Assembly: GCA_947184155.2 (NCBI GenBank)
Contig: CAMXCT020001835.1
Span: forward strand, 462,001-526,000
Length of the DNA stretch: 64,000 nt
Reading direction: 5' to 3'
Source of the DNA: Cladocopium goreaui
Taxonomy: Eukaryota; Sar; Dinophyceae; Suessiales; Symbiodiniaceae
Made by a program: the position numbers and the translations under genes. Positions 23,871-62,484 of this stretch are shown piece by piece. The notes below the pieces were generated by a model, which worked only from the letters and a program-made list of their open reading frames with translations, was not told the origin of the DNA and ran no database searches. Numbering within the stretch: position 1 is the stretch's first letter; each line of letters opens with the position of its first letter.

Positions 23871-24014
23871 CAAAACGTATAAAAATGTCATGGTGGGGAT
23901 AACTCGAAGTAAAGTAATTTCAGCTCTGCGCGGAAACATTGAGTGACAGTGTGCAATAGCCAAGCAAGCTCATTTGAGCACGGTCATGCGACGGCGGCTG
24001 ATTTCCAAATCAAC

Positions 24015-26283: not shown

Positions 26284-26404
26284 GGTAACAGGGGAAGTAT
26301 GTATATACAAGACTGTTCAAATAAACTATTGCAGAAAAGTGTTCTGAGTGACTGCATATCCATTAACGTACGTGTGAGCATTCGGGTTCGTGGGCTGCAT
26401 CTTG

Positions 26405-28978: not shown

Positions 28979-28979
28979 C

Positions 28980-29500: not shown

Positions 29501-29844
29501 TTGCACCCACGCCGTCCGCACACCACCGTTCGAGCCAGGTCGCTCCCCCACGCGGTTAAACAACTAAACGAGAACCCAAGCATCGAAGATGCTTTTGGGA
29601 ACAAGATAGTCTGGTTTTATCGGAATTTGCAAGACACCCATGCATTGAACTGGAAACTGCTGGATATTTTTTCCCTGCACGCCATCTGAACTTCAATGCA
29701 GTCTTATGTCCGTGCAAAATAGAATCGAATCTATCAATCCACATTAACCCAGCATACAACCCCAATAGCAAAGTTTCACATCTCCGTTGATGCCAATTTG
29801 GTATTGTCCGGGGAATCATTTTATTCAAAAAAATGCCGTTTCTT

Positions 29845-30262
29845 CAATACCACCAAAACACCACCGGAACACCGCCAAAACACCACAGAAACACCACAAA
29901 ACATGAGCAAGACTCAAAACATCACCGAACACCGTCAAGACTTAAGGACACACCGCCAAAGTGCCACCAAGACGCCAACGACCACCGAAACACAATTGAG
30001 AGACCACCAAGACACCAGCAGGAGGACAGTCACCATCAACCATCAGGACTGACCTCATCAGGAATTCCCGAAAGGGCCCGCGATGGGCTTTTGTTTTCCC
30101 AAAAAGTTGTTGCCAGCACATTTTGTCATAATATTATTTTCCCATCACCATCATCACAACACCGTCAGTACAGACATCCACCATCATCAGAACACCATCG
30201 TCATCACCGTCATCATCGTCATCACCGTCATCATCACCAAGTTCTTCTTCATCTTCATTTTC

Positions 30263-30294
<32 letters not shown>

Positions 30295-30535
30295 CATCCT
30301 CATCATCATCATCATCACCATCACCATCATCATCATCATCATCACCATCACCATCACCATCATCATCATCATCATTTTCTTCAATTTCGTCATCAGCATG
30401 TTTCCTTTTTCACCAACCATTCCCATACAATCATCATCATCATCATCAACAACAACAACAATAGCAGTAGTCATCATCATCATCGTCGTCATCATCATCA
30501 TCATTTTCTTCTTTTTCTTTTTCTTCTTCAACATC
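29845..30535 (+). repeat. CACCACC-type minisatellite and (CAT)n microsatellite
   Basis: ACACCACCGAA-like units at 29845-30030, then (CAT/CAC)n from about 30140 to 30510. The poly-His and poly-Met open frames here are repeat artefacts. Confidence 0.85.
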
Positions 30536-30899
30536 CATCCTCACTTTAATACGTCTCAAAAATGAAATTTATGTATACAGGTGTGGATGCAAGCATGAAT
30601 CTTACTGACAGGCGTTTAGGTGCAGATTCAAAGACGCAGGTTGACAGAATCTTCTTTAACACAGCTACCAAACGAATATATGCCATACGCAGGTGTCGTG
30701 CGGAAGATATATAGATGCAGGCGGAATCGTTTTTATGTAAACGAGAAGTGGATATATGCAGGTGTGAAGTGGCAAATGTAAAGACGCAGGTGGAAATCAA
30801 TTTCTTACAGACATTTACAATCAACCTTGATTGTTTCTAACTTTTCTCTTCGAGCGGCAGGGCTGCGGCAGCCTGGTTTGATGTCCACGAAACGAAACC

Positions 30900-45577: not shown

Positions 45578-45665
45578 TATAACAATGATGTCCTTGGGGA
45601 GCCCCGGAATACTTGCTAAAGCAAGAAGACTCTAGCGAGCTGACGCTACCTTTCGTGATAATGCC
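45578..45665 (+). repeat. Dispersed repeat B, left copy
   Basis: About 88 bp matching 61888-61975 in the same orientation: GATGTCCTTG, GGAATACTTGCTAAAGCAAG, AAGACTC, AGCTGACGCTA. It lies outside the copia LTRs, so it is host or older-element sequence that was duplicated before copia inserted. Confidence 0.75.
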
Positions 45666-45697
45666 AACAATTGCCAATAATGATGAAATGTAAGTGA

Positions 45698-45832
45698 ATA
45701 ACGATGATGATGATGATGATGACGACGATGACGATGACGATGACGAGGACGAGGACGATGACGATGACGATGACGAGGACGATGATGATGATGATGATGA
45801 CGATGACGAGGACGATGGCGAGGACGATGGCA

Positions 45833-45872
<40 letters not shown>

Positions 45873-46166
45873 CGATGAGGATGACGATGACGATGATGAT
45901 GATGATGATGACGTGATGGTGATGGTGATGGTGATGATGATGATGATGTGATGATGATGATGATGATGATGACGACGATGACGATGACGATGACGATGAT
46001 GATGATGATGACGACGACGACGATGATGACGATGATGATGATGACGTGATGGTGATGTGATGTGGTGGTGATGTGGTGGTGATGTGATGGTGATGGTGAT
46101 GGTTGGTGATGGTGGGTGGTGGTGTGGTGGTGTGGTGGTGGGGGGGGGAGGGGGGGGGGGAGGGGG
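45698..46166 (+). repeat. (GAT/GAC)n microsatellite ending in a poly-G tract
   Basis: GATGATGAC-type array to about 46040, GGTGATGTG variants to 46135, then a nearly pure G run to 46166. The copia element inserted in this G tract. Poly-Asp open frames are artefacts. Confidence 0.9.
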
Positions 46167-46364
46167 GAAGAGGGGCCCTAGCGTCTACTTCAAGATCAGC
46201 TAAGGCGTCTTCCCCAATGACAGCACTTGTTTTACTCAGCCTGTTGCCGGTCTGTGCTTGTCTACAGGGTTACTCTATATACCTCTTGAGCCTTGAAGGG
46301 CGCATATAAATGTGCTCAATACTCATGCATGTACCTATGTAGGTATTAGGTCGAAACAAAAACA
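46167..46364 (-). repeat. 3' LTR of copia element
   Basis: 198 bp, same sequence as the 5' LTR but lacking 4 bp (TCTT) in the hairpin loop and with one extra G. The outer end runs into the poly-G target. Confidence 0.92.
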
Positions 46365-47021: not shown

Positions 47022-50000
47022 TCATAGCCAAAAGCTTGATCTCCATGGTCTGGACGAAGAAGATGAGGATCCACCCCACTCTGTGTTGCCCTGATACGTT
47101 GATGCTTGATCTTCATATGCCTTTCTCTTTTTCTCCTTCTGTCTTTCCTTTCTTGTATCAGCATACTGCTTCTTCTTGTAGGCCTGTTTGTAATGATGTC
47201 GTTCATTCCATGACATATCAGAAGGATCAAGATGGATAAGAATTGGATTATGAGCATCGCGATCATTTGGGGCAACCATGAAGATGTTGTGATCACCATG
47301 TAAGCAAGTTTCATTTACCTTGAAGTAAAATTCACCCACATAGTTCATGTGATCTTCATCCTCAAAGTCTTCTGGGTGTTCCTCACACATCAAACGTGAA
47401 TGACCCCACTCAACAACTGTTAACATACAACAATCACCTTTACCATTTGTCTTGTTCATGAGCTCGTCGGTGTATGTTGCTGTTGTAATGCCATCCAAGT
47501 GCGTTGCAAGAAAATCCAAGTCACGATAACTGCAAGAAATGAAATGCTTGACCCTGATTGGAGGGCAAGATGAATCAAAATACTTGCGCATGGCTTGTGT
47601 TGCAACACCTACCATTCTGTTGATCCAGAATTGGATAAGGCTGTGTTGGTATGTAGGGACACCTGGAGATTTTGGTGTGCTGTAATAGCATGCCTTGTTT
47701 CCATCACCTGCGATGAAGTCAACTTGATATCTGGCACACTCAAAAGCCATAACAGCTAAGCACTCACCAACAATCCCAGCAGAGTCTGATGCATACTTCT
47801 GTCCGACGTGATAAACGCACACACGTGTCATTCTCATCCTAGCTCTTGTCAAGTCAACAATCTCATCTGTATCTCGATCCTTTGTCTTTCCCCAAGATAC
47901 TTCAAAGATTGCCCATGAGACTTGTCGAACTCGTGTGTCGTTGTCATCTGTGTGATATCCAGCAATTTGCTTGATATAGCCATCCTTTCCAAGGCGAGCT
48001 GCCACCATCAAGTCATGATAGTCATTGAAGCAAGTTTTAAAGTCAACCTCGTTGAGTCTTTCTCTGTGAGGATACAATGAACCAGCCTCGCAATTCATGA
48101 AAAGATGTCCTCCAAAGTTCTTGATGACATTGATGAAGTAATTGTTGAACTGTGATTTGTTTTCATCAAATTTTTCATGATCCTCATCGATGGTGTAGTC
48201 AATGTGTGGAATGAATTGTTGAAATCTTTCTGGAACCGGGCATTTTTCAAATCTGTTTCTGCACCAGTTTCCCAAATTCCAAAACATTGCTGTTATCTGT
48301 GGAGAGGATCTGTATGGAAATTCAGCATCCTTGTACGTTGGGTCTGATAGGCCTCCACCTAAATACCTGTAAGCCAAGCTATGCAAGATCATACAGTAGG
48401 GCAAGACCTTGTGGTCCTCAACGTAATCTTGGAGTACCCTTGTGAGATTTCCAAAATCGTCATCAATCCTCTTTTCTGCTTCTTTTGAGGATCTTTCTGC
48501 TTTGTCTTGATGAAGAGGATGCATCCTAGGATCACTACAACCATATTCAATGCGCTGATTGAGTTCTTGTAATTCTAGTTGTGGATTTTGATCCTTGTGT
48601 CTGGCAATGTACTCAACCATCAACTGGTCATCTGTAAGATGGTACCAATAATCTTGATGTGGAGACATGGTCTTCCTGTACTTGACATGCCAAAACATGT
48701 GTCGATGCTTCGAAGACGCTGGATAACCTTTGTTGTAAAATCCTGCCCATTCACCATGGTAATCATCTGAAAAACAATCCTTCAATTTTCGAAAAACTGA
48801 ATCATCTTCGTTTCCAGTTATATCTTGACCATAGTAAAGTCGAATTGCAGGTTTCACTTCAGGAGCTGTCTCATCATCTTGAATGTCTGTTTTCTTCTCC
48901 CCTGATTCCTCCTTTTCTGAGGAGCGTTCAGGTGGAGCTGATTCCTCCTTCTCTGAAGAGCCTTCAGCTGGGACATGTGGCTCCTGTGTGTCTTTTTCTT
49001 CTTCTTTTTCTTCGACAGCAATCTCCTCTTCTTCATCCTCTTCTTTCTCTTGTCGTTCTTCTGGTTTGACAAAACTGTCCTTGATCTTTTGTTGAACATT
49101 CTGATTGCACATACTGATCCATTTCAATGTACACTCAACCAATTTGTCATCATCAGTTTCCAAAACGATATGCTTGTCCTCAATGTTCAAACTTTCAATA
49201 GTATGTTTGTACTCAGGATCACCTGCGCCTGGTCTTTGAAGATCTGGAAGAGGAGTGTCTGGATCATCGTCCACCAAATCAGGATCCTCTGCTCCAAAGA
49301 AATTTTCTGCGCCAAGGTGTTCATTCTCCCTGAGAACTTGGTCAATATCCAGTTTGAACTCATGATACATGTCGTAACAGATCTCATAACCCATCATAGG
49401 TGCATACTGCTCCATAAATGTTGAAAAGGAAGCATCTGATAATGCCGACATCATCAGCCATAATGAGAAGAAGCTTATGTCACCACGTTCAAGGGGTTGA
49501 CCTCCTTCAAGATCATCTCCTGTGAGGATTGATTGGCCTGCAAGTGTAATATCCTGTAGGATCCTCCTGTGCTCTGGTTTGAGTTGCCTGACTAAAAACA
49601 GTCCCTGTCGATCTTCCATATTTCTTCGAGGATTTGCATCTGGTAATACCTCATCTTCTTGTTGTGGTTGTGTTTCCTCTCTTTCTTGAGAGCATACACC
49701 TTCTTCCTCTCTTTCCTGAGAGCCTGATGCCTTTTCCTCCTCTTTCCTGACAAAAACTTGTAGTCTTGGCAAAAACTCCAAATCATCTTCAGCATCATCA
49801 TCATCGTGATCTTCCATGTCCACATTCTGTTGCTCTGATTCTGGGATGTGAGCAATCTTGTCCTTTCCAGCTACCCAGATGTAGCCATCGAGCTTTGTAG
49901 ATGTGTGGAAGTCACCTGAACCGCATTCCCTGACCTTTGTCCTTGCTCTTGCAGATTGATGGAATGCTTCATGCTGAAAGAATTGATTGTAGGCATGTTC

Positions 50001-52607
50001 AACAAAGAATCTGTAGGATTGAGCTGTCAATTCCTTTCTGCTATCCACAAATTGTCGAAGCTTGTTCAGAGCAAAAACTGTGAAATGGCTGAAGCTAGCA
50101 GGTGCTTCATCTTCATACAGATCGATTGCCATGATCATCATTTTTGTGGAAAACGAGAAATGCCGTTCAGGTTCAGGGATGACTGTTTTCTTGTTCATGG
50201 GAACTGTAATTCCTTGGATAGTCATGTCATACCCATGTGTGTTCAACTCCAGTGCATCCAAAATGTTACCATCACGGTCCTTCTTTCTCTTGCAGAAATC
50301 TCCCCAGAGTTTGTTGTTCTCTCTAATGAACTGATCAAGATGCTTGGTGTAAAAGACAAAGACTGCTTCTGAGAGATACTCCATGTCCTTCTGTATTGCT
50401 AAGTCTCTTTCGTATAGCAAGAACTTCTCTCTCCATTCGTCTCTGTTGATACTGTGTCTGTCTTCCCAACCTGTTGGGGCAACTTGACCTCGCATCCAGT
50501 CTGTCCAATATTGTCGACAAGAGTTCATGTAACCTTCCATGGCGTCAATGTCTCTTTCTCGATGGAAGTGTGCCAACATGCGTCCAATCTCCCAAGCTCT
50601 TGTGAAGAGTAAGCATAGATGTCCTGTCCATGGTAATTTCTCCCAATCTGAGCGAGTGATCGATTGTCTACGAAGTGCTATCTTTTGTGAAGAGAGTAGT
50701 AGGTTCCATTCACGCAGAACTATCACTTTTTCTCCTGAGGAGTTCTTGATGAGTTCACCGCTCTCTTCTCTTGCACAGACAATTCCTGCCTCATACAGGA
50801 CCCAGGGATTCGATGCAGAAATTGAACTTTTGGTAGCCTGTTCTACCACAGGGTCTACGATATCATCTGGTGGATCTTCTGCTTCCCAGAGATTGACAGC
50901 CTCTTCACCCATTGGGTCGTCATGGACGTCCACTGATGGCTCCTCTTGTTGATTGTCTTGAGCATCTTGTTGAGGATCATCATGTTGTGGTGATTCTGGA
51001 CTTCCTGATGAGGAGCGTTGTTGCTCCCATACATCTTGAGGTTCCTCTCTTTCTTGAGAGCGTCCTCTTCTTGATGGTTGTTCATATGGATTTTCCATGG
51101 TTTCATCAGCCTGCGCAGATACCTCTCTTTCTTGAGAGCCTTCTGCTGCAGCACCATAGATTGATTCCACAACCGGGTCAAAGTCATTCTCGTTGCATAG
51201 TGGTGTACCAAAAACCAATCTTCCATAGTTTTGTGGAACCTGTTGACCCATGAACTCCCATGCTGTGATTCTGACTTCCTCAGGAATGTCTTGTCCAGGA
51301 ATAAATGTTGGACCTTTCTCCTTCATGACATGGTTCCATGTTGTGTTGGTGTGCCATGAACCACCTGTAACCGATGGAGGTAGAGAGTGACCACGTCCTT
51401 GATGAACAACGTTGCATGCAATGGTAGGGAGTTGTTCCTTGACGTGGAGGTACTGGAAAGGAATGTCACCATGAAATAAAATGACACCATTCTTTGTCAG
51501 ATAGAGTTGGTTGTCCACAATAAAACTTGGATCCAACACGAGGTACACTGATCGCCTATAGTTTCTTGGAGGCTTCGTGCCCTCTGCCATCCTTATGTAG
51601 CCCTGACCATTGTCATTGTGATACATGAAGTGAACTGCATCCCTTCTGCCTTTTCCACTTCCTTTCACCAAGGTCTTCAGGCCTGATTGTTGAATGGAAT
51701 CTAAATTCACGTAATCAGTGACATGAAAAATCCAGCCCAAACTCATAGCCTCATCATATGTCAGTTGGTGGTGTGCCACAGTGGGATCGACAACTTGGTT
51801 GCTATGTCCTTGAAAAGCACCAAGACGAACGTCGAATGGATACTCTGCCATTGAGCTATATGGGTACCACTGCCATCTCATGGAGATCTCAACAAAGAAA
51901 CGTTGTTTTGGATTACACAGTAACATAGCAGCAAAATCTGCTCCAGACATGTGATATTCCTTTGGATTGTCTCCTTGCATCTGATCAAACAGTAAGGAAA
52001 TGTTCATAGCTCCACTGGCAGTGAATAACGTTTTGTCTCTGCAATGTCTCAACACATTGGATAGCCTCTTGCTACATGACATATAATAACTTCTCCTTGA
52101 TGAGCTAGTCATGTCCACGTGGAAATCATTGCATCGTTCATCAAACCAGTTTTCTTCTGCCTGAGTTGTAAAGCCACAGAGATACTTCAGAAAACTTGAA
52201 GTCCATTTCAAAGATTCATCAAATTCTCCATGACTAGTTCCCCAGTGCAAAATCCAAGCTATTGCGTCCATGAACATTTCATGTCTGTCAGTTGGTCTCA
52301 TGTTGTGTGGACCCATCAATGTATGTAAATTGCGCTCTCTCTTCTTCCTCACTTGCTCGTGAGCCTGAAACCAATCTGTTTGGCGCCTGTAATCATAGCA
52401 AAATGATAAATGATCCTCATCGGGCAATGTCGATGGTGTTCGAAATTGGTCAGCTGGGATTTCCTCTGATCTTCTCAGAGCATATCCATCAGCTGAATGT
52501 CTTCGACTAAAATCATAGCCTTGATGTTCTTGACCTCGAGTGTTCGATTGTGCCTGATCACTAGATGCTGCGGCTGAGGCCCTGTTCCACCGGCTAGAGC
52601 TCGACAT
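47022..52607 (-). CDS. ORF2: Tpt1/KptA-like RNA 2'-phosphotransferase plus EEP-like nuclease
   Basis: About 1860 codons from ATG at 52607; the frame is open upstream to 52658 but lacks another ATG. Residues about 180-385 match Tpt1/KptA, the NAD-dependent enzyme that removes RNA 2'-phosphates: SKRLSNVLRHC (R187-H188), VRLGAFQGHS (R261, H268), GWIFHVTDY (H295, where the family has HGT), GRRDAVHFM (Arg near 321), VYLVLDPSFIV and LTKNGVILFHGDIPFQYL. The catalytic Arg-His-Arg-Arg set appears present. Residues about 440-620 and 930-1290 are acidic, disordered linkers with SQERE/SSEKEE motifs. About 1437-1700 resembles an endonuclease/exonuclease/phosphatase fold: AMFWNLGNW (Asn), FMNCEAGSL (Glu), FIAGDGNKA (Asp-Asn), VVEWGHSRL (His). 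Basic C-terminus. No reverse transcriptase. Same strand as pol, in the place where some elements carry an extra ORF. Tpt1 call good; EEP call moderate; any role in the element is inferred. Confidence 0.75.
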   Translation of the reverse strand: MSSSSRWNRASAAASSDQAQSNTRGQEHQGYDFSRRHSADGYALRRSEEIPADQFRTPSTLPDEDHLSFCYDYRRQTDWFQAHEQVRKKRERNLHTLMGPHNMRPTDRHEMFMDAIAWILHWGTSHGEFDESLKWTSSFLKYLCGFTTQAEENWFDERCNDFHVDMTSSSRRSYYMSCSKRLSNVLRHCRDKTLFTASGAMNISLLFDQMQGDNPKEYHMSGADFAAMLLCNPKQRFFVEISMRWQWYPYSSMAEYPFDVRLGAFQGHSNQVVDPTVAHHQLTYDEAMSLGWIFHVTDYVNLDSIQQSGLKTLVKGSGKGRRDAVHFMYHNDNGQGYIRMAEGTKPPRNYRRSVYLVLDPSFIVDNQLYLTKNGVILFHGDIPFQYLHVKEQLPTIACNVVHQGRGHSLPPSVTGGSWHTNTTWNHVMKEKGPTFIPGQDIPEEVRITAWEFMGQQVPQNYGRLVFGTPLCNENDFDPVVESIYGAAAEGSQEREVSAQADETMENPYEQPSRRGRSQEREEPQDVWEQQRSSSGSPESPQHDDPQQDAQDNQQEEPSVDVHDDPMGEEAVNLWEAEDPPDDIVDPVVEQATKSSISASNPWVLYEAGIVCAREESGELIKNSSGEKVIVLREWNLLLSSQKIALRRQSITRSDWEKLPWTGHLCLLFTRAWEIGRMLAHFHRERDIDAMEGYMNSCRQYWTDWMRGQVAPTGWEDRHSINRDEWREKFLLYERDLAIQKDMEYLSEAVFVFYTKHLDQFIRENNKLWGDFCKRKKDRDGNILDALELNTHGYDMTIQGITVPMNKKTVIPEPERHFSFSTKMMIMAIDLYEDEAPASFSHFTVFALNKLRQFVDSRKELTAQSYRFFVEHAYNQFFQHEAFHQSARARTKVRECGSGDFHTSTKLDGYIWVAGKDKIAHIPESEQQNVDMEDHDDDDAEDDLEFLPRLQVFVRKEEEKASGSQEREEEGVCSQEREETQPQQEDEVLPDANPRRNMEDRQGLFLVRQLKPEHRRILQDITLAGQSILTGDDLEGGQPLERGDISFFSLWLMMSALSDASFSTFMEQYAPMMGYEICYDMYHEFKLDIDQVLRENEHLGAENFFGAEDPDLVDDDPDTPLPDLQRPGAGDPEYKHTIESLNIEDKHIVLETDDDKLVECTLKWISMCNQNVQQKIKDSFVKPEERQEKEEDEEEEIAVEEKEEEKDTQEPHVPAEGSSEKEESAPPERSSEKEESGEKKTDIQDDETAPEVKPAIRLYYGQDITGNEDDSVFRKLKDCFSDDYHGEWAGFYNKGYPASSKHRHMFWHVKYRKTMSPHQDYWYHLTDDQLMVEYIARHKDQNPQLELQELNQRIEYGCSDPRMHPLHQDKAERSSKEAEKRIDDDFGNLTRVLQDYVEDHKVLPYCMILHSLAYRYLGGGLSDPTYKDAEFPYRSSPQITAMFWNLGNWCRNRFEKCPVPERFQQFIPHIDYTIDEDHEKFDENKSQFNNYFINVIKNFGGHLFMNCEAGSLYPHRERLNEVDFKTCFNDYHDLMVAARLGKDGYIKQIAGYHTDDNDTRVRQVSWAIFEVSWGKTKDRDTDEIVDLTRARMRMTRVCVYHVGQKYASDSAGIVGECLAVMAFECARYQVDFIAGDGNKACYYSTPKSPGVPTYQHSLIQFWINRMVGVATQAMRKYFDSSCPPIRVKHFISCSYRDLDFLATHLDGITTATYTDELMNKTNGKGDCCMLTVVEWGHSRLMCEEHPEDFEDEDHMNYVGEFYFKVNETCLHGDHNIFMVAPNDRDAHNPILIHLDPSDMSWNERHHYKQAYKKKQYADTRKERQKEKKRKAYEDQASTYQGNTEWGGSSSSSSRPWRSSFWL
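51045..51060 (+). repeat. Mini-hairpin type element (representative of 11)
   Basis: TTC-CTCTC-TTTCTT-GAGAG-C. The same 16-nt architecture, always preceded by CCTC and followed by GAGC on the plus strand, occurs at 48909, 48945, 49677, 49707, 51123, 52348 and 52464 (ORF2) and at 54326, 58658 and 59705 (Gag-Pol). A shortened form lies in the 5' LTR at 61772. The two inner stem bases change in a paired way: TC/GA, CT/AG, AC/GT, TA/TA, TG/CA. Confidence 0.7.
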
Positions 52608-52651
52608 GTTGAAGAAACAGTGCGATCCTCGAGACTCTGCCTTTTGAGCCG

Positions 52652-52668
52652 CAGGCACAAATTCAAAA
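52652..52668 (+). repeat. 17-bp direct repeat, right copy
   Basis: CAGGCACAAATTCAAAA, 6 bp downstream (element sense) of the RNase H tail stop at 52674-52676. Confidence 0.9.
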
Positions 52669-52673
52669 AATAG

Positions 52674-52934
52674 TCAAGAATCCCTCAAGGTGTCACCTAA
52701 CAGAAATACATCATGTCTGAAATCAACATGACTGCAAACTGTTGGCAACCATGACCTGAGGTAAGCCTTGTGTTCCAGTAATGATCTGAATGGTGGATGA
52801 GCATCAACTTCCTTAAGAACACCTTGTCGAACAGCATCAATAAGATTCTGAGGATTGGCAGACTTCTTGGTCAAACAATCGGCTAAACACCATTGAGTTC
52901 TGATATGTGACAAGTCAGCAATGAACCTGAACAT
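52674..52934 (-). pseudogene. Frameshifted C-terminal RNase H tail of pol
   Basis: Out of frame with the main polyprotein by one base. Reads SHIRTQWCLADCLTKKSANP, the standard copia C-terminal RNase H motif (HxxT...LADxLTK), and ends LRDS-stop at 52674. The main frame leaves this homology at about 52924-52930, where a single-base loss explains both frames. It is a mutation or assembly error; the break would remove the end of RNase H from this copy. Confidence 0.8.
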
Positions 52935-55900
52935 GCTTCTTTCCTAAGCATCTGAATCATATGAATGGTCTCTTGTTGTTCAGGAACATGAGTAGTGCTG
53001 GCAGTAGTCACAAGATTGTTTGCATCAGTCCTCATATGAATCTCACTTGAAAGTCCAGTGATGTCCTTGATCAGTCCTCTCAACATTTGACATGTACCAT
53101 AACACTTCATGAGTGCATACAACTCTGCAACAGTTGTGCTCAACGTGGTACGTTTGATTTTGGTTGATTCAAAGAAAATAAGAGAACCTCTGGTGTTTTT
53201 GCTCTTTTCCTTTCTCGGTTCAGCCATGAAAATAACCATTGCGCGCTGTGAAGATTTATCGCTGTTGTTCCTAAACGCTGCATCTGGCATTGCAACTAAT
53301 CTAGGATCACCTTGAAGTGGCCAGAACATAAGTTCCATCGGGTCACCTACAATTTGCCTACAAAGTTTGTTCAGCGTTTTGCAATCACCTATGGTGGGGG
53401 AAGCAGCGGCAGAAGCACAACGTGAAAACTGATAACACGACTGAAATTGAGTTCTTGATTGTAACCAATTGATACTACCTAAGAGTGATCTATAGGCAGT
53501 GTGGAGATCCTTGTCACATTTGTCTTCATCCTTCAACCCTTTTGGTATGACAACCTCAGTAAGTTCACTGACGCAAAGTGATTGTTCAACAGTGATGTGT
53601 GATTTCTTCTTGGTCTTTTCATCAATGATCCATTTCACACGTTGACCAGTGAACATCAAATCATTCACATCTTCATGACCAATCTTGAATTGTGACTTGA
53701 CAACTTTCTTGAACTTCTCCAGAAACTCTGGAGTTCCAGTAATGAACAAGTCGTCAACATGCAAACAACACATGCCAATAGGTTTTCTTCCCTTGGCATT
53801 ACTGCCATTCACAGGGTCCATGAAGTGTTCCAAGAGTTGTTCAACAATCTCAGGTGTCAACTGTGGTGTCGTGGCAAGATAAGTACGCTCTGAAGGTAAG
53901 AAGACTGAAACAAGTACTTCAGCTTCTTCTTCCAAACTTATGGAAACATTGTCCTTGTTCATGTCATGATTCATCTCAAGCAACCACCAAACTCCTTTCC
54001 TCTTCACAATAGAAGTTCTCAAGTGAAACTTCTTTCGATCATAATGTGAATCAGGAGTTCTCAAAGCTTTTGCACGATAGGCAACTTGAGCATGACCATT
54101 TTCAAAAGGATACCAACCAGACTTGTGTTCAACAGATTCCAAAAACTTCAACAAAGTTTCATCAACAACAGGAGTCCAAGCACAATCTTCAACCTTCTTC
54201 TCCTTGAACTCTTTCCTCTGTTTCCACGTTTGGGTTTGTTGATAGCAAGCTGAAAACAATCTTTCTTCAACCAGAAGAGACTTATGAACTTCCTCAGCAA
54301 TGTCGGAGGATTCATCACGCGTTTCCTCACCGTCTTGTGAGCTTACGTAGTATGTCACAGGTGCTGGTTCTGTTGCCTCAGAGTCAGCAAAGCTAACCTG
54401 TTTTGGCTCCTTAAAAGCACCATCATAGCATACATATGTACACCTGTCAGCTCTTGTTGGTTGAATACCAAGCGAAATCAGAAATTTGTCAAGGCGGTTC
54501 CACCATCTACGTGGTGCGTCCGCAAGTCCATAGACGGAACGAGTGCACAAACCAACCAAGTAAGGAGGCAAACCAATGTCAGTAGGCAACTGAACATGGA
54601 TAACGCGGCGGTCTAAGTCGTATGTTTCCCCCTGAAGGAAGGCAGTTTTCAAGTCTAAATGGAGTAAATCCCAGTACATCGAGGCTGCATGCTGAGATGC
54701 CACACGAAAACCATACCTGGTAGCAGTAGGACTGTCAGTCTGTAAGTCATACTTTTGAGCATCTTGAAAGCCTCTACATACCCATCTAGCCTTGAACTTC
54801 TTGAACTGTCCATCCTTATCAACCTTGATTGTAAGCACCCATCTGCCAGTGACATAGTTATCAATCTTATGACGTCTCTTGTCTCTGAAAGTCATGGCAG
54901 TGAAATCCAGAAAACTTCTGAATTCTTCAAGCTTGGCTTGTTTGATCTCCTTAGCATACTTTCTCAAGACTTCTTGAGTGATAACTGATTCTGCCTTTGG
55001 CTGCTTCTTTCCATTCTTGGCAAGATACTGTTCAAACTGTTTGAATCCAGTAACATCGTATGAACCAAACTCAGGTGCAGCTTGGACCTTTGGTCCTAAA
55101 GGAACGAAAACAGTACCATCAACATCGACAAAATGAGAGTGGTCTGATGTGTAAGGTTCAGTGTCCACATCTTCTTCCTGAAGCTGAGCAATGTCATCCT
55201 CAGTCAAAACAGGAGTGTCGTCTGTTTCATATGGTTCTGTTTCATCATCATCATGTTGTGATGATACCAATTCTGGTGTTCCTTGTGAAGACTGCTGTTG
55301 CGCTGGCTGCGCAAAGTCACCTGGCGTAAACGATGTTGGTGTAGTAGTAGGCAATGGAATTGTATTATCATGTGAACTTGAGGCAGTAGGATCATGTAAA
55401 GGTCCTTCATCTTCATCTTCATGAGGTTTCTGAGTAGGAACTGAAATTGGCTGAACATGACCTGGTAATTGAACCTTTGGCCTCTTGATAATCACCTTTG
55501 CCTTTGCCTTTGGTAAAGCATCAGTAGAATCAGTTGAGATCTGTCTCTGTTTCCTTTGAACTCTGATAGGCTCTGACGTTGGATCAGGTCCTGGTGGAGA
55601 ATCGTCATCTTGTCCAGGATCAGCAATCTCTTCGATTGGAATGTCAGGATTGGAAAACGGAGTTGATGGTGAACTTGGTTGATGTGTTTCCCCCGAGTCC
55701 TGTATTCCTGGCATATCCAAATCATCATCAGGTGGTGGTCCATAATCATCTGGAATGATGTACTCTTGATCATCATCATCACCTGGATCAGGTCCAGTAT
55801 TGTAATCAGGTTGATTATCATCATCCAGAGGATCATCTGGTTCATCACCACTCAACATCTCATCATCATTTGGTGGAACATCACCATGCTGATCTGGATG

Positions 55901-58900
55901 AATGGGATCGTCACCATTTGGTGGAGTGCTACTTGAACTAGGAGGATCTTCAACTCTCCTTTTGATAGCACCAGTCGTTTCTCGTGAAAAGACGATCATA
56001 CTCCATTCATGGATTTTGAACTGTTCATGATGTGGATACAACTGTGACACAAACATGAAGTAAACATGATCATAGTCACCAGGTTTCCAAATGAGTAAGA
56101 CAGCATCTTCAGGATGTTGAAACAAAGGATTCACTCTTCCATAAGTTCCTCTGAACACACTGCAATCTTCAAAGTACATTTGAGGCAATGTCTTCTTTCT
56201 GACATCTTGAAGTCCAGGAATCAGTTCAATGATTCTGGGGTCAGTTGATTCTCTGACACTAGCCTCTGTACTCCTTGGCAACTGATCAATCTTCCTCAAT
56301 GTTTGAACAAGTAACTGAGTGGTAAACCTCTGTGGAAGAATGTGCTTCAACGGCACTGGAATCGAGGTCTCAACATTATGCAAGTCTTGCAACAAACATG
56401 AGCACTCAGGTTCACGGTCCAAAAACATTGAAGTGCCACACAATGCTCCATCATCAAAATGTTCCAACAGATCTTCAAACAAGAAACATTGTCTCATGTT
56501 CTGCAAAGGTACAAGTTGTGTGAACTGCGCAATGAATGAACACAAGTGAGATGGTAAGACCTTCCATTGTGGATCATTCCAAAGCTTCCCTTCTCTATTG
56601 AAGGCATGCTGTGGTTCCAACATGTCAAAGTCTTCATCATGATTGTAATACACACGCAAGTTCTTGATTGAAGGATCACAACGACAGTAATTTGTCATGT
56701 CAAGGTTGAAACAACCAATGTGATACTTGATTCTGTCCTTCTGAAATTTCTTCCAAGCCAAAAACTGAGCAAATCCTGAATCAGGTGGTGCAATCACCAA
56801 GAAACCTTTTCCTCGGTCAGCTTGCCATTTCATCACATCAAGGCAAAACTTGAATACCGAGTATTTCCAGGAATTTGGTGAAGGATTTGTGATCAACACG
56901 TATTCAGGATCAAGCTTCTCAAGTTGTTTCCAAACTTGGTTTTGTTTCTTTTTACTGTTGAAACTCCAACCATGCTTGTGGTCAATGGGTTCACCAACCT
57001 TCATGTTCAATCGTGCCATGTGCCAACTAAGACCAGTGTTGCTACTGAAAAGTTCCACAACATCACACTTGCCAGTTTGACAGAACCAGTGAGCTTGTTC
57101 ACCTAAGTAGGCTTCAGCATATTCAGCTATGTCTGGTTCATAGTCATCTTCATCTTCAACTGCAAGTGGAACAGGTTCTGATGTGTCAAGTCCAGGAACA
57201 GCAACATCATGCCATTCATCATGGTCACGTCTCACCTTCGATTGATTAACACGCATGACTGCGTTGTCAACATGAACATTGACCATAGCACCTTCCTGAG
57301 AGATAACAGTACCTCTGATCCATCTTTCCTTCTTCCATGCCTTTGAAGCAATAGCATTAGCATTGACAGGGGAACTCCAAACGAAAACCTTGTCACCTGG
57401 TTTGTAAGGTCCATCTGATGGCATTGTTCGTTTGGCCATGTCATGTCTGAGGTCAGCAGCTTGTCTGGCTTCCTGATGTGCCCTCAGCGCTAACCTTTGC
57501 AACTCGAGTTGTGTTTTGTCTTCAGGTAAAGGATCAACACTAAGTTGAGCAGGATCAGAAGTCTCAATATCCAGAAGATCTGGTGGTCTTCTACCAGTGG
57601 CAATTTCCAAAGGAGAATAACCACTAACAGTGAGTTGAGTGTTTCTGGCCCAAACAGTACGCTTCACAGCTTCTCTGATGGTGATTCCTTTGAACCTATC
57701 ATCTTCAAGGTTCTTGGACATGATTTGCCATTGTCGTTTGAAAAGTCTAACAGCTGATTCAGCTCTGTTAGGCCATGGGGTTCTTGAACCACAGGGACAT
57801 TCTTTGATACCATGAGTTCGGTAATAAGTCAGAAAGTCTTCTTGAAAGAAAGCTTCATCACCCACGATGGCTTTAGGCATACAATTGTGTTCATCACTCC
57901 ACAACCTTAGAGCCTGAATGGTCTCCTTGTTGTTCAGTGAGTTTTGTGCCGTAGCCCAAAGTAAGTTGGTTGCACCATCAAGAACAAGCAACACCATGTA
58001 CTTGTTCTTCCTCAACTGAATTTCAGCATGATCAACAAAGATAACATCTCCAAAGTTGGTGGATCGTATGCCTGAAATTCTGGCTCGCGGCGGTGGTGCA
58101 ATTGAAGTACTACACACACGACACTTGTTGTACATCTCCTCATACTTCTGATAAACAGAGTCAGGAAGTCCTAACATGGAAGTCCTTCGTCTGAATTGAG
58201 TAGGAGACATGTGATAGTGTTTAATGTGAAGCTTGTAAAGTTCCACACTATCCTCCAGTTTCCTGAGCATCTTTCTGTATGCTGGTGTCATGGCTTGCAC
58301 TTCACTACCAGGCAGTGGAATCGAAACTCGCCTAGGCTCAAGAGCATCACTACCTAGTTTCTCAACTTGACTTTCTGAATCTTGCTTACCACGGTTGCGC
58401 GCAGGTGCAGAATGTTTTGGTTCAATGACTTGAGGTTCATCTGAATCAATCTTGTCCAAACCTAATTCCCTAGCTACCTTGTCAAGCTCATCTTCTTCAT
58501 CAAGCTTGGGATAGGAGACAACAACCTTCTTTCTTGATGAACCTGATTGAGAGTCATCGACAACTTGAGGTTTCTGCTTACCTACGTGTCTTTTGGCTGC
58601 AGGTGGACCTACCTCAATCTTTTTCGAGCCTGGTCCATTTGAAATCGGTTTGCCTTCCTCCTTCTTTAAGGAGCTTGGCTTCTTCTTCTGTACACCTGAT
58701 GGCACTGAAGAGGCTGACTCAGGGTGAAAAAGATCATCAATGTTTCCACGAAAGGGCTTTGCACGATCAATGTCACTTCTGACAATGTCATCTGGGATCA
58801 CGTAGTCCTCGTTGATCTTGTAGATGGTCTTGCCCTTCCAGAACTCTTCACTCTGTTCAGAAAACCTCTTCTTCTCAGTGCGCCAGTTGTCCTTGTGAAG

Positions 58901-61597
58901 AACCTTCTTCTTGCTCTTCTGGAATTCAATGTGGGTTTCTCTCTCATCAAGAAGTTGATCTTTTGGAATTGGAGTTTTCTCTGATCGAGTCATCTCATGT
59001 AAGTTCATTCTCTTGTCCTTGTGGTGCCTGATGAGTTCACGACGTAGTGGATCAACCTGCCAGTAGTCACCAGTCACCAAAGCTTCTCCTTCATGATCAT
59101 CTTGTTTGACAGCAATCTGACTGTACTCAAAGTGATCGTGTTGTGAATAGAAACTTTTGACTTGTGGAGTCTTGAAATGAACTTGGCTCATGTACCATGC
59201 TACATCTTGTAGGTCGAGAATGAGATGAGTACTAATGGCTGTCCTCAAAACCATTTTTCTCATGCCAATACGTGCACAGGACAAATAAGCCTTCTCTGGA
59301 GTAAGTTCAAATTGAAATCCAAGGTTTCTCATCTGTGGAAGTGACATCAACAATGGGACATCACCTTCTTCGACAATGTCGAATTCTGTAAACTGAGTGT
59401 TCCATCCATGATCATACATGAATATCACGAGCTTCTCAGTACATTTTGATTGTTGTGAGTTTGCAAAGAAGAATCTTGAACTTGTTGGCTGAATTTCATA
59501 CCAGAGTCCACTGTTGGGATGTGAGTCAACATATCTGCAAAATGCTTCAACTGCTCGTCGAGAGCCCATAGCTCTTGTGCATCCAAGATCCAGAATACAC
59601 ACAGTTGGTGGTGCAGAATTCTCTGTGTGAAAAGCTAGTCCATTCTCACATGCCAGATCAGTTTGTACAGTATGAAATGAAAAAGCACTCTGCTGTGATG
59701 GTTCCTCTATCTCTGTAGAGCATCCATGTGAAAACAATGATGTGCCTTCTGCCAATGGCTTCCATGAAGCCTCACCTTCTTGAAGACCAACTTGCCTGGG
59801 CACTACAGCTGGACGTTGTTGTACACCTTGTCGTAGTGCACCAACTTCTCCAACCAGAACAGGGAATCTCTTCATTTCTCTCCTGTTTTGATGTGCTCTT
59901 GCATCACGTTGGTTCTGTCCTCCACGACGAGTGCGTCGTTGTTCATCTTGTGCTGAATACGTGGATGTCAAAACATCAACACGAGCTGGCTCTGTCTCTG
60001 CAACATCAACACGTGCTGGTTCAGTTGTTCCAAATGAAAAGAAACCATGACCAGAACTTGAAGCTGCAGAAGAATAATGAGCTTGTTGAGTTTGTTGATT
60101 CTGTATGGCAGGAGCTGATGTGGTCTGAGGTTGAACATAGTTCGACTTGCCTTTTCCATCTCCTGGCTTTCCTCCTTTTCCATCATCATCCTTGCCTTTC
60201 TTGCCTTTCTTTCCTTTTCCTTTTCCTTTTCCTTTCCTCTGGAAATATCCATACTCATCCATGTAGTATGAATCATCATAGGCCCAATAGCCTTCATTCC
60301 AGGTTTGATCATCGGCCCAATAGCCGTCATAGTTTTCATTCCATTCATCATCTTGCCATTCATCTTCATAACCTTCTTCACTCACCATGTGAGAGCGGCC
60401 TTTCTTTCTTCCTTTTCCTCGGCCTTTTCCTTTTCTTGATCTGAAGAATCTTCGTCCTCCTCTGCCTTTTCCTTTTCCTTTTCTCTTTCCTTTACCTTTG
60501 CCTCGTCTGATGTATTTGCCTTGGAACCTTCTCTGATACCATGTGAAGTTGGCGTCATCATAAACCCAGAAAACATCTTCTAAAGCATCCAGGAATCCTT
60601 CTGCGCCGTCTTCTTCATCTTCGGCCCAATAGCCGTCGGTTCCTTCTAATTCACCTTCATCCAGTACGAGGAAAGATCTTCTCTGTGCCATGCCAGAGGG
60701 TTGCATCAATGGATTGTCAACTGCTGTTTTGGTAGTGCAAAACATTTCCAAGAACAGGTCACGTAGTTCTTGAATGCTGTATCGATCGAGAGTTCGTCCA
60801 CGATGTGTCATGATACTTGTGAGTGTGTTTCTTTGATCTTGACTCAGGTCAGCTAGACTTACAAAAATCAATGCTAGCAAATTTTCACCCAGTGGGAATG
60901 CTTGTCGCTGTGCTTCTCTACGATTTTCCTGAAATAGTCTGAATGCCGCTAGTGCCAGTTCATCTGTCCAAGGAACAGCTACATGGGGTGTTCCTGAGGC
61001 TGCTGCTACTTCAGCTCTCTCTTGTTGATCTCGTTCATGTTCTTGACGTCGTTGTTGAACAAACAGGATTGCTTCAGGACTAGTCACTGTTACTTCTGGA
61101 AGTAAATCCATCCAAGACTCAATAAGTCTATTGCCAGTGAGTTGAAATCTAGTCATCCACTTCTGAAGATCCATGGTTCCTCTGTTGAACTTCATGAACT
61201 GCATGAAACGGTATAAGAACACGTTCTGGGCACCTTTGATGAAATGAGGTCGTAGAAATCTTTTAAAATAAGCCACTCCTTCATAGGGATCCCTGAGTAA
61301 TTCTCTATCCAATAGCCTCTTGTATTGTTGAGCATCTCCTTCCAGTCTGTTGCGCAATGCTGGACCACGTTTCTCTGGTTCTAACTCCGTAATGTCACAC
61401 CAGTCATCAATTGCATCCTCAAAAGCAAAGAAGCTGGTTCGCCCATCATAGGCTGGAGCAACCTTTGTGGTCATCTGTTGCGTCATATGAATCTGTGTTT
61501 GCTGGGGTGCTCTTCTCATTGCATAAGAGTCATATTGGTTCCATTCATTTGCATCGACAATGTCGAAGTCATCATCATCATAGCCATGGCTTGCCAT
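52883..61597 (-). CDS. Copia Gag-Pol polyprotein (Gag, PR, IN, RT, RNase H)
   Basis: 2904-codon frame with ATG at 61597, 40 bp after the primer site. Residues 1-360: Gag-like helical region. About 362-402 and 451-484: very basic KGKGKRKGKG tracts in place of a CCHC zinc knuckle. Around 670: protease, ILDLGCTRAMGS, with Leu after the catalytic Asp. About 1124-1159: integrase HHCC zinc finger (HYHMSPTQF ... CRVC). Catalytic D near 1189 (FVDHAEI), D near 1246 (VGDEAFF) and E near 1279 (NRAESAV). RT: LDLKTAFLQG with D2315 and LHVDDLFITG with D2615-D2616 (His for the usual Tyr). RNase H: D near 2772 (MPDAAF), E near 2823 (TVAELYAL), D near 2857. About 300 residues separate the two RT aspartate motifs, far more than usual. 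The frame ends early at 52883 by frameshift. It replicates the element by reverse transcription and integration. Confidence 0.93.
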   Translation of the reverse strand: MASHGYDDDDFDIVDANEWNQYDSYAMRRAPQQTQIHMTQQMTTKVAPAYDGRTSFFAFEDAIDDWCDITELEPEKRGPALRNRLEGDAQQYKRLLDRELLRDPYEGVAYFKRFLRPHFIKGAQNVFLYRFMQFMKFNRGTMDLQKWMTRFQLTGNRLIESWMDLLPEVTVTSPEAILFVQQRRQEHERDQQERAEVAAASGTPHVAVPWTDELALAAFRLFQENRREAQRQAFPLGENLLALIFVSLADLSQDQRNTLTSIMTHRGRTLDRYSIQELRDLFLEMFCTTKTAVDNPLMQPSGMAQRRSFLVLDEGELEGTDGYWAEDEEDGAEGFLDALEDVFWVYDDANFTWYQRRFQGKYIRRGKGKGKRKGKGKGRGGRRFFRSRKGKGRGKGRKKGRSHMVSEEGYEDEWQDDEWNENYDGYWADDQTWNEGYWAYDDSYYMDEYGYFQRKGKGKGKGKKGKKGKDDDGKGGKPGDGKGKSNYVQPQTTSAPAIQNQQTQQAHYSSAASSSGHGFFSFGTTEPARVDVAETEPARVDVLTSTYSAQDEQRRTRRGGQNQRDARAHQNRREMKRFPVLVGEVGALRQGVQQRPAVVPRQVGLQEGEASWKPLAEGTSLFSHGCSTEIEEPSQQSAFSFHTVQTDLACENGLAFHTENSAPPTVCILDLGCTRAMGSRRAVEAFCRYVDSHPNSGLWYEIQPTSSRFFFANSQQSKCTEKLVIFMYDHGWNTQFTEFDIVEEGDVPLLMSLPQMRNLGFQFELTPEKAYLSCARIGMRKMVLRTAISTHLILDLQDVAWYMSQVHFKTPQVKSFYSQHDHFEYSQIAVKQDDHEGEALVTGDYWQVDPLRRELIRHHKDKRMNLHEMTRSEKTPIPKDQLLDERETHIEFQKSKKKVLHKDNWRTEKKRFSEQSEEFWKGKTIYKINEDYVIPDDIVRSDIDRAKPFRGNIDDLFHPESASSVPSGVQKKKPSSLKKEEGKPISNGPGSKKIEVGPPAAKRHVGKQKPQVVDDSQSGSSRKKVVVSYPKLDEEDELDKVARELGLDKIDSDEPQVIEPKHSAPARNRGKQDSESQVEKLGSDALEPRRVSIPLPGSEVQAMTPAYRKMLRKLEDSVELYKLHIKHYHMSPTQFRRRTSMLGLPDSVYQKYEEMYNKCRVCSTSIAPPPRARISGIRSTNFGDVIFVDHAEIQLRKNKYMVLLVLDGATNLLWATAQNSLNNKETIQALRLWSDEHNCMPKAIVGDEAFFQEDFLTYYRTHGIKECPCGSRTPWPNRAESAVRLFKRQWQIMSKNLEDDRFKGITIREAVKRTVWARNTQLTVSGYSPLEIATGRRPPDLLDIETSDPAQLSVDPLPEDKTQLELQRLALRAHQEARQAADLRHDMAKRTMPSDGPYKPGDKVFVWSSPVNANAIASKAWKKERWIRGTVISQEGAMVNVHVDNAVMRVNQSKVRRDHDEWHDVAVPGLDTSEPVPLAVEDEDDYEPDIAEYAEAYLGEQAHWFCQTGKCDVVELFSSNTGLSWHMARLNMKVGEPIDHKHGWSFNSKKKQNQVWKQLEKLDPEYVLITNPSPNSWKYSVFKFCLDVMKWQADRGKGFLVIAPPDSGFAQFLAWKKFQKDRIKYHIGCFNLDMTNYCRCDPSIKNLRVYYNHDEDFDMLEPQHAFNREGKLWNDPQWKVLPSHLCSFIAQFTQLVPLQNMRQCFLFEDLLEHFDDGALCGTSMFLDREPECSCLLQDLHNVETSIPVPLKHILPQRFTTQLLVQTLRKIDQLPRSTEASVRESTDPRIIELIPGLQDVRKKTLPQMYFEDCSVFRGTYGRVNPLFQHPEDAVLLIWKPGDYDHVYFMFVSQLYPHHEQFKIHEWSMIVFSRETTGAIKRRVEDPPSSSSTPPNGDDPIHPDQHGDVPPNDDEMLSGDEPDDPLDDDNQPDYNTGPDPGDDDDQEYIIPDDYGPPPDDDLDMPGIQDSGETHQPSSPSTPFSNPDIPIEEIADPGQDDDSPPGPDPTSEPIRVQRKQRQISTDSTDALPKAKAKVIIKRPKVQLPGHVQPISVPTQKPHEDEDEGPLHDPTASSSHDNTIPLPTTTPTSFTPGDFAQPAQQQSSQGTPELVSSQHDDDETEPYETDDTPVLTEDDIAQLQEEDVDTEPYTSDHSHFVDVDGTVFVPLGPKVQAAPEFGSYDVTGFKQFEQYLAKNGKKQPKAESVITQEVLRKYAKEIKQAKLEEFRSFLDFTAMTFRDKRRHKIDNYVTGRWVLTIKVDKDGQFKKFKARWVCRGFQDAQKYDLQTDSPTATRYGFRVASQHAASMYWDLLHLDLKTAFLQGETYDLDRRVIHVQLPTDIGLPPYLVGLCTRSVYGLADAPRRWWNRLDKFLISLGIQPTRADRCTYVCYDGAFKEPKQVSFADSEATEPAPVTYYVSSQDGEETRDESSDIAEEVHKSLLVEERLFSACYQQTQTWKQRKEFKEKKVEDCAWTPVVDETLLKFLESVEHKSGWYPFENGHAQVAYRAKALRTPDSHYDRKKFHLRTSIVKRKGVWWLLEMNHDMNKDNVSISLEEEAEVLVSVFLPSERTYLATTPQLTPEIVEQLLEHFMDPVNGSNAKGRKPIGMCCLHVDDLFITGTPEFLEKFKKVVKSQFKIGHEDVNDLMFTGQRVKWIIDEKTKKKSHITVEQSLCVSELTEVVIPKGLKDEDKCDKDLHTAYRSLLGSINWLQSRTQFQSCYQFSRCASAAASPTIGDCKTLNKLCRQIVGDPMELMFWPLQGDPRLVAMPDAAFRNNSDKSSQRAMVIFMAEPRKEKSKNTRGSLIFFESTKIKRTTLSTTVAELYALMKCYGTCQMLRGLIKDITGLSSEIHMRTDANNLVTTASTTHVPEQQETIHMIQMLRKEACSGSLLTCHISELNGV

Positions 61598-61637
61598 TTC
61601 TTGGGCTCTACCTGGAGCTCACCCTCAATGAGGGATC

Positions 61638-61653
61638 ACTGCTCCGCTACCAC
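61638..61653 (-). promoter_or_regulatory. Primer binding site (initiator tRNA-Met type)
   Basis: In element orientation TGGTAGCGGAGCAGTG, 2 nt after the 5' LTR. It resembles the TGGTATCAGAGC site that many plant copia elements use with initiator tRNA-Met. The position relative to the LTR is exactly as expected for reverse-transcription priming. Confidence 0.75.
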
Positions 61654-61655
61654 TT

Positions 61656-61856
61656 GAAGAGGGGCCCTAGCGTCTACTTCAAGATCAGCTAAGGCGTCTT
61701 CCCCAATGACAGCACTTGTTTTACTCAGCCTGTTGCCGGTCTGTGCTTGTCTACAGGGTTACTCTATATACCTCTTTCTTGAGCCTTGAAGGCGCATATA
61801 AATGTGCTCAATACTCATGCATGTACCTATGTAGGTATTAGGTCGAAACAAAAACA
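61656..61856 (-). repeat. 5' LTR of copia element
   Basis: 201 bp; in element orientation it starts TGTTTTTGTTTCGACC and ends GGGCCCCTCTTC. Contains a TTTATATGCG TATA-like site and the mini-hairpin core CTC-TTTCTT-GAG at 61772-61783. Matches 46167-46364 apart from a 4-bp and a 1-bp indel. Confidence 0.92.
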
Positions 61857-62484
61857 GGGGGGGGGTCCCCCCCTTTCGCGTGAAAAATCACGTGATGTCC
61901 TTGAGCAGCCCCCGGAATACTTGCTAAAGCAAGAAGACTCCAGCTAGCTGACGCTAGCTTTTGTGAATAGACTAGGTGTCCAAGAATCTTGAAGAATCTT
62001 CGAGAATCATCAACACAGAACAAAAGTGTGTGAAACACAAACCCGTTGAGTTTTGACCCTTGAGGCCCTTGCTTCTAAGGTTATCAAAAACTTCAAGCAT
62101 ATCAGGCCACAAACCACACTGGCGTCCAGGGAGAGGAAGTGATCCACAAATTCCAATGGCCCCTCAGCTGTGCAGAGGTAACAATCCAATCATGGTAAAT
62201 CGCCGGAGAAAACGACTCTACGAGCCTATGCTGTGCTCTGAGGTCGCTGCCACGGGTTGTTCTGCCAGATCCTGTCAACTGGTCTTGGGTTCATGATGGT
62301 TCATGATTTGAAGCACTTTTCCATCATCAAACATCAAAGCACGTGTCAAAATCACCGCAAAACCCACCTCTGAGACATCATCCGATTGCTCAAAACAGTC
62401 ACCATAAGTCGCCCACCTGAGGCTCTCAGTTCAAAATCCAATTTCCGTCTATGAAAACACGCACACAGACTCACACAATGTGCA
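61857..62484. other. Flank of copia insertion, no gene
   Basis: Starts with the G-run and its complementary C-run (GGGGGTCCCCCC), then repeat B (61888-61975). The rest has a plus-strand open frame at 62060-62296 without support. Nothing else seen. Confidence 0.4.
61888..61975 (+). repeat. Dispersed repeat B, right copy
   Basis: Same unit as 45578-45665 with about ten differences; located 32 bp outside the right LTR. Confidence 0.75.

Follow-up and report, generated by a model that had tools for sequence, protein, structure and literature searches.

A Tpt1/KptA-like RNA 2'-phosphotransferase domain encoded behind pol in a copia-type retrotransposon of Cladocopium goreaui

Retroelements carry gag, protease, reverse transcriptase (RT), RNase H and integrase, and occasionally a methyltransferase. 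Why would one of them also encode an enzyme that acts on RNA 2'-phosphates? The question is raised by a stretch of 64,000 nucleotides of the dinoflagellate Cladocopium goreaui (contig CAMXCT020001835.1, positions 462,001 to 526,000; the window), which is one part of an assembly of 1.166 Gb in 6202 contigs. The window contains a copia-type long terminal repeat (LTR) element of about 15.7 kb on the minus strand, in which a second open reading frame (ORF2) follows gag-pol. A preliminary description, made from the sequence alone, had suggested that ORF2 joins a Tpt1-like RNA 2'-phosphotransferase to an EEP-like nuclease. Here we ask whether these domains are present and maintained, how ORF2 might be expressed, and what it could do for the element.

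Results

ORF2 and its Tpt1/KptA domain

ORF2 is open for 1878 codons from a GTG and for 1861 codons from the ATG at 52607, which bears out the strand, the coordinates and the uninterrupted frame of about 1860 codons described initially. Direct repeats on either side and an RVT_2 match upstream place it downstream of pol, in the same orientation, and ahead of the 3' LTR, also as described. The features of ORF2 and of its junction with pol are as follows (window positions).

52671..52676, minus strand: TGA CTA in the ORF2 frame, between the pol tail and ORF2, in a read-through type of context
47022..52658, minus strand: ORF2, 1878 aa, in the order Tpt1, acidic linker, middle region, linker, EEP-like domain
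51474..52079, minus strand: Tpt1/KptA-like RNA 2'-phosphotransferase domain, ORF2 residues 194-395, from PF01885 and predicted structure
49887..50810, minus strand: middle region, residues ~617-924, without assigned function, colinear in a second lineage at 23% identity (blastp, P0013 and P0025)
47202..48338, minus strand: EEP-like domain, residues ~1441-1819, with motifs WN, CEA, GDGN and GHS

Near the N-terminus, where a series of Tpt1 motifs had been read, PF01885 matches residues 194-395 with E 8.8e-9 (36.1 bits, cut-off 26). A predicted structure of residues 95-445, built from a 12-row alignment, is uneven in confidence (mean predicted local distance difference test score, pLDDT, 60; ten-residue blocks at 70-82 in the N-lobe and 44-92 in the NAD lobe). 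Foldseek returned 190 matches to this model at E<=10, and all 19 of those at E<=1e-3 are Tpt1/KptA. The domain is 16-23% identical to solved Tpt1/KptA chains, relative to which it has insertions; a PDB sequence search with ORF2 gave five spurious matches only, all with E>1.

Residues were numbered by the Clostridium enzyme, in agreement with those named in PMC6333775, and compared in an alignment with stretches of Clostridium, yeast and mammalian Tpt1. The window domain retains the equivalents of S10, K11, R18, H19, K66, R68, H101, T103, I111, R121 and R139, that is, every residue compared. R18, H19, R68 and R121 form the tetrad that binds the 2'- and 3'-phosphates of the junction (PMC6333775), and an H-H-V triad is described for TRPT1 (PMC7955679). 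The idea that the arginine before QGHS is the third tetrad arginine, and was lost in the window, was refuted: the tetrad arginine lies in KxRF and is kept, and in the yeast Tpt1 chain a cysteine precedes ATQGHS.

Conservation was assessed in the 32 of 44 fetched database proteins that carry a precomputed PF01885 label, a set picked by label rather than by motif, with three proteins from the window lineage and 29, many of them near copies, from the second lineage. R18, H19, K66 and R68 are retained in all 31 proteins that reach them (P0041 starts inside the domain), and H101, T103, R121 and R139, together with a further histidine and the valine of the ADP-ribosyltransferase (ART) triad, in 32 of 32; S10 is present in eight and K11 in three. 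From these comparisons, the Tpt1/KptA domain of ORF2 is predicted to have an intact active site, and it would be expected to remove 2'-phosphates in an NAD+-dependent reaction.

Copies, selection and linkage to pol

A search of the C. goreaui genome with ORF2 yielded 3806 first-look candidates, the best 25 of which, the window included, were scored. Identity is 97-100% in all 25, across residues 1-1877 or 1-1878; 22 are free of stops, and three have one TAA each. Given these near-identical and mostly stop-free places, ORF2 is not a chance frame. For the eight best-scoring copies, which include the window and are not a random sample, pN/pS was pooled from simple pairwise counts rather than estimated by maximum likelihood; it is 0.22 across ORF2, 0.27 in the Tpt1 part and 0.33 in the EEP part. 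ORF2 is under purifying selection.

The preliminary description had left open whether homologs of ORF2 are linked to pol or are ordinary host genes. Directly upstream of ORF2, pol was found in seven of the eight best-scoring copies, and the near-identical copies, the upstream pol and the PF01885 survey described below rule out an ordinary host gene. In one copy (L004, G000:C752:1-7242), which starts 109 bases inside a contig end, 36 codons of pol tail precede a full ORF2, and a further pol tail and the beginning of another ORF2 come after it; this arrangement reflects either tandem copies or an assembly effect.

ORF2 as an extension of Pol

The junction between pol and ORF2 is readable in 22 of the 25 scored copies and was not found in three. 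In 18 of the 22, TGA CTA stands in frame with ORF2, and 16 of these 18 have no further stop in up to 110 codons before the TGA; the window copy and L008 have additional stops within the codons preceding it. UGA CUA is a high-read-through consensus for human genes (PMC4359377). In the relative P0004 a tryptophan replaces the stop, and pol and ORF2 form a single open frame. Because most readable junctions put ORF2 in the pol frame after a UGA CUA stop, ORF2 is probably translated as an infrequent C-terminal addition to Gag-Pol, through read-through of this stop. The P0004 fusion and the in-frame TGA CTA weaken the alternative of a separate gene.

A second lineage with the same domain order

The relatives comprise 44 database proteins, 37 of which came from a second search, and 29 of these 37 have a precomputed Tpt1 domain. 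This second lineage (P0008-P0044, including P0040 from Durusdinium trenchii) is about 30% identical to the window in the EEP part and 30-33% in Tpt1. P0013 and P0025 have the same order of Tpt1, middle region and EEP as the window, and a search of the C. goreaui genome with P0013 found the three regions in order at all 26 scored places (of 1508 candidates). By these alignments, the order is old and common to the two lineages.

In P0038, an RNase H-like stretch that shares 82% identity over 227 residues with the window pol is connected to an ORF2 of the second lineage, at a junction that is apparently an internal deletion when compared with P0025 and the window pol. The second lineage therefore probably also lies behind a copia pol, although P0038 could be a chimera of two elements. 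If it stems from a single element, the difference between lineages of 82% identity in RNase H and about 30% in ORF2 would indicate either fast evolution of ORF2 or its exchange.

The EEP-like C-terminal domain

The N/E/GDGN/GHS series read in the preliminary description is present near the C-terminus, and its assignment to EEP enzymes is supported, not proven. The WN, E and GD-N motifs align in register with EEPs of the same genome (hhalign E 0.035), with a score of 22.4 compared with 10.2-15.5 in ten column shuffles, and the last motif is GHS; an earlier hhalign comparison had aligned only the WN motif. At least 45 of the 50 rows listed by VIA-align are EEP enzymes, the best of them from the CCR4/Nocturnin/PDE12/ANGEL2 branch, and the motifs are retained in the relatives. 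An EEP fold is thus plausible. A match of this part to MoaE (NCBIfam, E 0.00097, 18.7 bits, cut-off 175) was judged spurious, and an IMG/VR scan with the EEP alignment gave 68 stretches, none confirmed.

Tpt1 in other retroelements of the genome

A survey of the genome with PF01885 gave 1496 first-look candidates, and all of the best 150, which were scored, are above the cut-off. Only three are strong matches of the cellular type (174-180 bits). L009 is a possible host gene; the neighbours of L010 and L011 look bacterial by gene reading. The assembly has bacterial-looking contigs, namely G000:C1, of over 7 megabases, and C5523 (with L010, L011, L056 and L057).

A group of 22 places (L012-L033, 92-101 bits) has frames of up to 2760 codons, and those read have an RNase H-like stretch upstream of Tpt1. 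Their long database relatives P0047 and P0053 have an RT-like stretch with MDD; a Pfam scan of eight such proteins found Tpt1 only. By motif reading and resemblance to the published SymbioDIRS, we consider this group DIRS-like, and it may be the SymbioDIRS type with a previously unreported Tpt1.

Many of the remaining matches belong to long frames, the longest of 4039 codons. On contigs C5803 and C2768, frames of 4026 and 3924 codons represent another copia type with a CCCH-finger gag, an RNase H-like part and Tpt1; their weak RVT_2 matches (E 0.0077 and 1.5e-4) fall short of the Pfam cut-off, and neither frame has a recognisable EEP part. L034/L035 and L076/L077 read as copia elements in which a single frame of about 4000 codons encodes a gag with CCCH zinc fingers, a C-terminal Tpt1 and, after it, a stretch resembling a CxxC finger. 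The initial account of Tpt1 as cargo of one copia element therefore stands as to its presence and needs correction as to its extent, given that Tpt1 also occurs in another copia type and a DIRS-like type.

A Tpt1 tree of 22 rows drew seven rows from the 22 DIRS-like loci, a single one from group B and four from proteins of the second lineage. The DIRS-like Tpt1 is placed next to cellular Tpt1 of eukaryotes (97/97); that of copia lies elsewhere (95/97), with group B joining it (85/85). Approximately unbiased (AU) tests gave p 0.0435 against uniting the ORF2-type copia rows with the DIRS-like rows in a single clade and p 0.086 against a single clade of all elements, in both cases with long branches. 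Two or more captures of Tpt1 by retroelements are suggested.

Discussion

What the module may do

We suggest, with about even confidence, that ORF2 provides a high-copy copia element with an RNA-end healing module, made as an extension of Pol and used in reverse transcription. In this scenario, the module would be made with Pol by read-through of the UGA CUA stop and packaged alongside the reverse transcriptase. The Tpt1 domain would use NAD+ to strip 2'-phosphates from RNA, at junctions where a ligase of the yeast or plant type may have resealed cut element RNA or the tRNA primer. The EEP domain, like CCR4, ANGEL2 or PDE12, would trim or dephosphorylate RNA ends (2',3'-cyclic phosphates or 3' tails), and a damaged template or primer could thereby become copyable.

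ANGEL2, which belongs to the CCR4 type of EEP enzymes, removes 2',3'-cyclic phosphate by way of a 2'-phosphate (PMC13247085). The pairing is plausible because Tpt1 clears the 2'-phosphate left by ligation of the yeast or plant type and ANGEL2 the cyclic phosphate. The same paper covers both the cutting and re-ligation of mRNA against transposons and RNA ligation that favours LINE-1. RNA healing is favoured because Tpt1 recurs behind pol in another copia type and in the DIRS-like type, and the initial interpretation of an RNA- or DNA-end-processing pair carried by a retrotransposon is supported. A wider idea, which we hold tentatively and with a little more doubt than belief, is that RNA repair is a recurrent and possibly required third enzymatic arm of dinoflagellate retrotransposition, with Tpt1 acquired by several kinds of element, probably more than once, because 2'-phosphate or cyclic-phosphate damage would regularly arise in the RNAs or primers of these elements and stop reverse transcriptase.

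Several observations weigh against this healing role. As regards Tpt1, S10 and K11 are absent from most second-lineage proteins, and the one group B domain aligned (L034) has a glycine for H19 and lacks the second ART histidine. The EEP assignment is the weaker half: Pfam gives no EEP match (PF03372) in ORF2 at E<=1, there is no such match in five relatives at E<=10 or in five more at E<=1, and a PDB sequence search with the EEP alignment found nothing. Foldseek with the EEP model (pLDDT 39) gave nothing at E<=1e-3, and acetyl-CoA carboxylases are prominent among its weak rows. The usual last motif of EEP enzymes is SDH, and in ORF2 the corresponding EWGHS carries a glycine in place of the aspartate. 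At the junction, four of the 22 readable copies are out of frame, in the window copy a stop ends the pol frame about 69 codons short of the TGA, and ORF2 could instead be translated independently from the ATG at 52607, for instance after trans-splicing. We infer read-through from its sequence context, and likewise infer the substrate of the module.

Alternative explanations

The best surviving alternative, though unlikely, is that the Tpt1 domain is a nucleic-acid ADP-ribosyltransferase that caps phosphate ends of the element's cDNA or RNA with ADP-ribose, as a protection or a mark, with the EEP domain removing or trimming such ends. Solved structures of KptA bound to 5'-p-ADPR-DNA, or to DNA together with NAD+ (9lda, 9ld6), are indeed among the structural matches. 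However, the window domain keeps the full tetrad as well as the NAD+ pocket residues compared, so loss of the second chemical step is not indicated.

A slightly poorer prospect is that the module targets the host, by disarming or repairing RNA damage from an anti-transposon response or by altering host RNA. We know of no cleavage-and-ligation defence against transposons in dinoflagellates, and made no search for one. In favour of this reading, ORF2 diverges fast (about 30% identity compared with 82% in RNase H, from P0038) with its active-site residues fixed. Animals have a cleavage-and-ligation defence against transposons (PMC13247085), and KptA in phages and viral polyproteins has been interpreted as RNA repair (PMC9503650). 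However, P0038 looks internally deleted or chimeric, and its pol is perhaps not the true partner of its ORF2; moreover, placement behind pol in several kinds of element favours action within the particle.

It is improbable that both the Tpt1 and EEP-like parts are enzymatically dead and have an RNA-binding or structural role within Gag-Pol. The missing aspartate of SDH, the insertions in the window Tpt1 and the losses in L034 would fit such a role, but the catalytic residues do not vary among the 32 labelled proteins, which come from two old lineages.

Retroelements are known to take up host genes, and dinoflagellate DNA methyltransferases (DNMTs) offer a precedent (PMC5890265), but that ORF2 is a host gene fragment captured and amplified without a role is very hard to credit in view of its pN/pS of 0.22, the long open frames of the scored copies, the shared order in two old lineages and the presence of Tpt1 in several kinds of element. 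EEP endonucleases open the target in LINEs, and C-runs at three insertions (see below) could point to a target preference, yet an APE-like integration nuclease that replaces or aids integrase is just as improbable, and replacement of integrase by the EEP domain is among the readings we rejected.

Relation to known systems

The ORF2 domain shares with Tpt1/KptA of yeast, mammals and Clostridium the PF01885 profile, the predicted fold, the R-H-R-R tetrad, the NAD+ pocket and the H-H-V triad. Unlike the cellular enzymes, it resides in a retrotransposon, has insertions and shares its polypeptide with a middle region and an EEP-like domain. Viruses offer a closer parallel, in that KptA is likewise carried by selfish elements such as Beihai picorna-like virus, Botrylloides leachii nidovirus, jumbo phages and Bodo saltans mimivirus, and in RNA viruses sits inside a polyprotein, in a manner comparable to ORF2 (PMC9503650). 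The carriers in that paper are RNA and DNA viruses, whereas those described here are LTR and DIRS-like retrotransposons; the word retrotransposon is absent from its main text.

SymbioDIRS-Dnmt3 and SymbioLINE-Dnmt (de Mendoza 2018, PMC5890265) are likewise dinoflagellate elements of high copy number with a host-type nucleic-acid enzyme in or beside Pol. They differ in that the cargo is a cytosine methyltransferase and the carriers are LINE and DIRS elements; that paper has copia without DNMT, and 'phosphotransferase' is absent from its main text. The EEP-like domain has the WN, E and GD-N motif order of CCR4, Nocturnin, PDE12 and ANGEL2 but differs from them in lacking a significant sequence match, in having GHS for SDH and in its fusion to Tpt1. 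With Ty1/copia the element has in common short LTRs, a primer binding site (PBS)-like site, and protease-like, integrase-like, RVT_2 and RNase H-like parts in a single frame; it differs in its length of about 15.7 kb and its extension of 1.9 kilo-residues behind a UGA CUA stop.

The preliminary description knew of no copia element with such cargo, and our search of the literature (open-licence papers only) likewise turned up no paper that describes a retrotransposon with Tpt1 or KptA. The window element thus appears, from its sequence, to be an LTR retrotransposon whose class of cargo we found unreported, and retrotransposons would join phages and RNA viruses as carriers of KptA. If an intact RNA 2'-phosphotransferase lies repeatedly behind Pol, RNA-end healing may take place within some retrotransposition cycles, and the element suggests that copying RNA into DNA sometimes requires an RNA-mending step of its own. 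It would also give a handle on the role of Tpt1 outside tRNA splicing and on whether 2'-phosphates block reverse transcription in cells.

Anatomy of the element and further observations

The remaining features of the element are as follows.

61656..61856, minus strand: 5' LTR, TG start, ~200 bp, direct repeat with 46167-46364
61637..61652, minus strand: putative primer binding site TGGTAGCGGAGCAGTG, immediately internal to the 5' LTR, by sequence reading
52883..61597, minus strand: gag-pol ORF, 2904 aa, with RVT_2 (PF07727, E 1.8e-17)
46167..46364, minus strand: 3' LTR, direct repeat with 61656-61856

The two LTRs of the window (198 and 201 bp) are identical except for two small indels. Both LTRs are present in the copies at C646 and C2446, where they end in CA with TGGTAGCGGAGC two bases further on; those of C646 are identical across the 193 bp compared, those of C2446 differ from each other, and at C77 the probes recovered only the end of the 5' LTR. 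By sequence reading, the putative PBS TGGTAGCGGAGCAGTG complements a tRNA 3' end of the form CTCCGCTACCA, and the PBS-like TGGTAGCGGAGC lies behind the 5' LTR in three copies (window, C646 and C2446).

In gag-pol, the copia RT match (RVT_2) covers residues 2249-2394 and is over the Pfam cut-off; the other parts bear motif labels without Pfam matches. They comprise a gag-like part with basic G/K-rich stretches, a protease-like DLGCTRAMG from residue 667, an integrase-like D1189/D1247/E1280 upstream of RT, HVDD from residue 2613 and an RNase H-like end. The spacing from D1247 to E1280 is slightly below the 35 of D,D-35-E, and integrase has no Pfam match in gag-pol. Neither a tyrosine recombinase nor a DNMT gave a profile match in the window element, the LTRs of which are plain rather than split A-B-A-B repeats.

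Between the integrase-like part and RT, pol residues ~1511-1580 look like a degenerate cytosine methyltransferase (CDVVELF..., ITNPSPNSW), a putative likeness by motif, with no Pfam match. The two group B elements read have a comparable segment that contains PC (ASLPCVGGSPWG). The LTRs contain AAGGCTCAAG, which we take to resemble the 3' end of the dinoflagellate spliced leader, and a similar GGCTCAAAAGG occurs just upstream of the ORF2 ATG at 52607. Poly-C or C-rich repeats flank the three insertions with flanks read (window 46130-46166 and 61857-61886, C646 and C2446), and such C-runs may be a target preference of the element. Elsewhere in the window there is a run of N at ~27.2-27.5 kb, and long simple-repeat-like arrays occupy 23200-30600 and 45664-46090 (TTCACTCTACACTCC-like repeats, repeats coding for FPFLSLPFPS, and CCA/CAT repeats).

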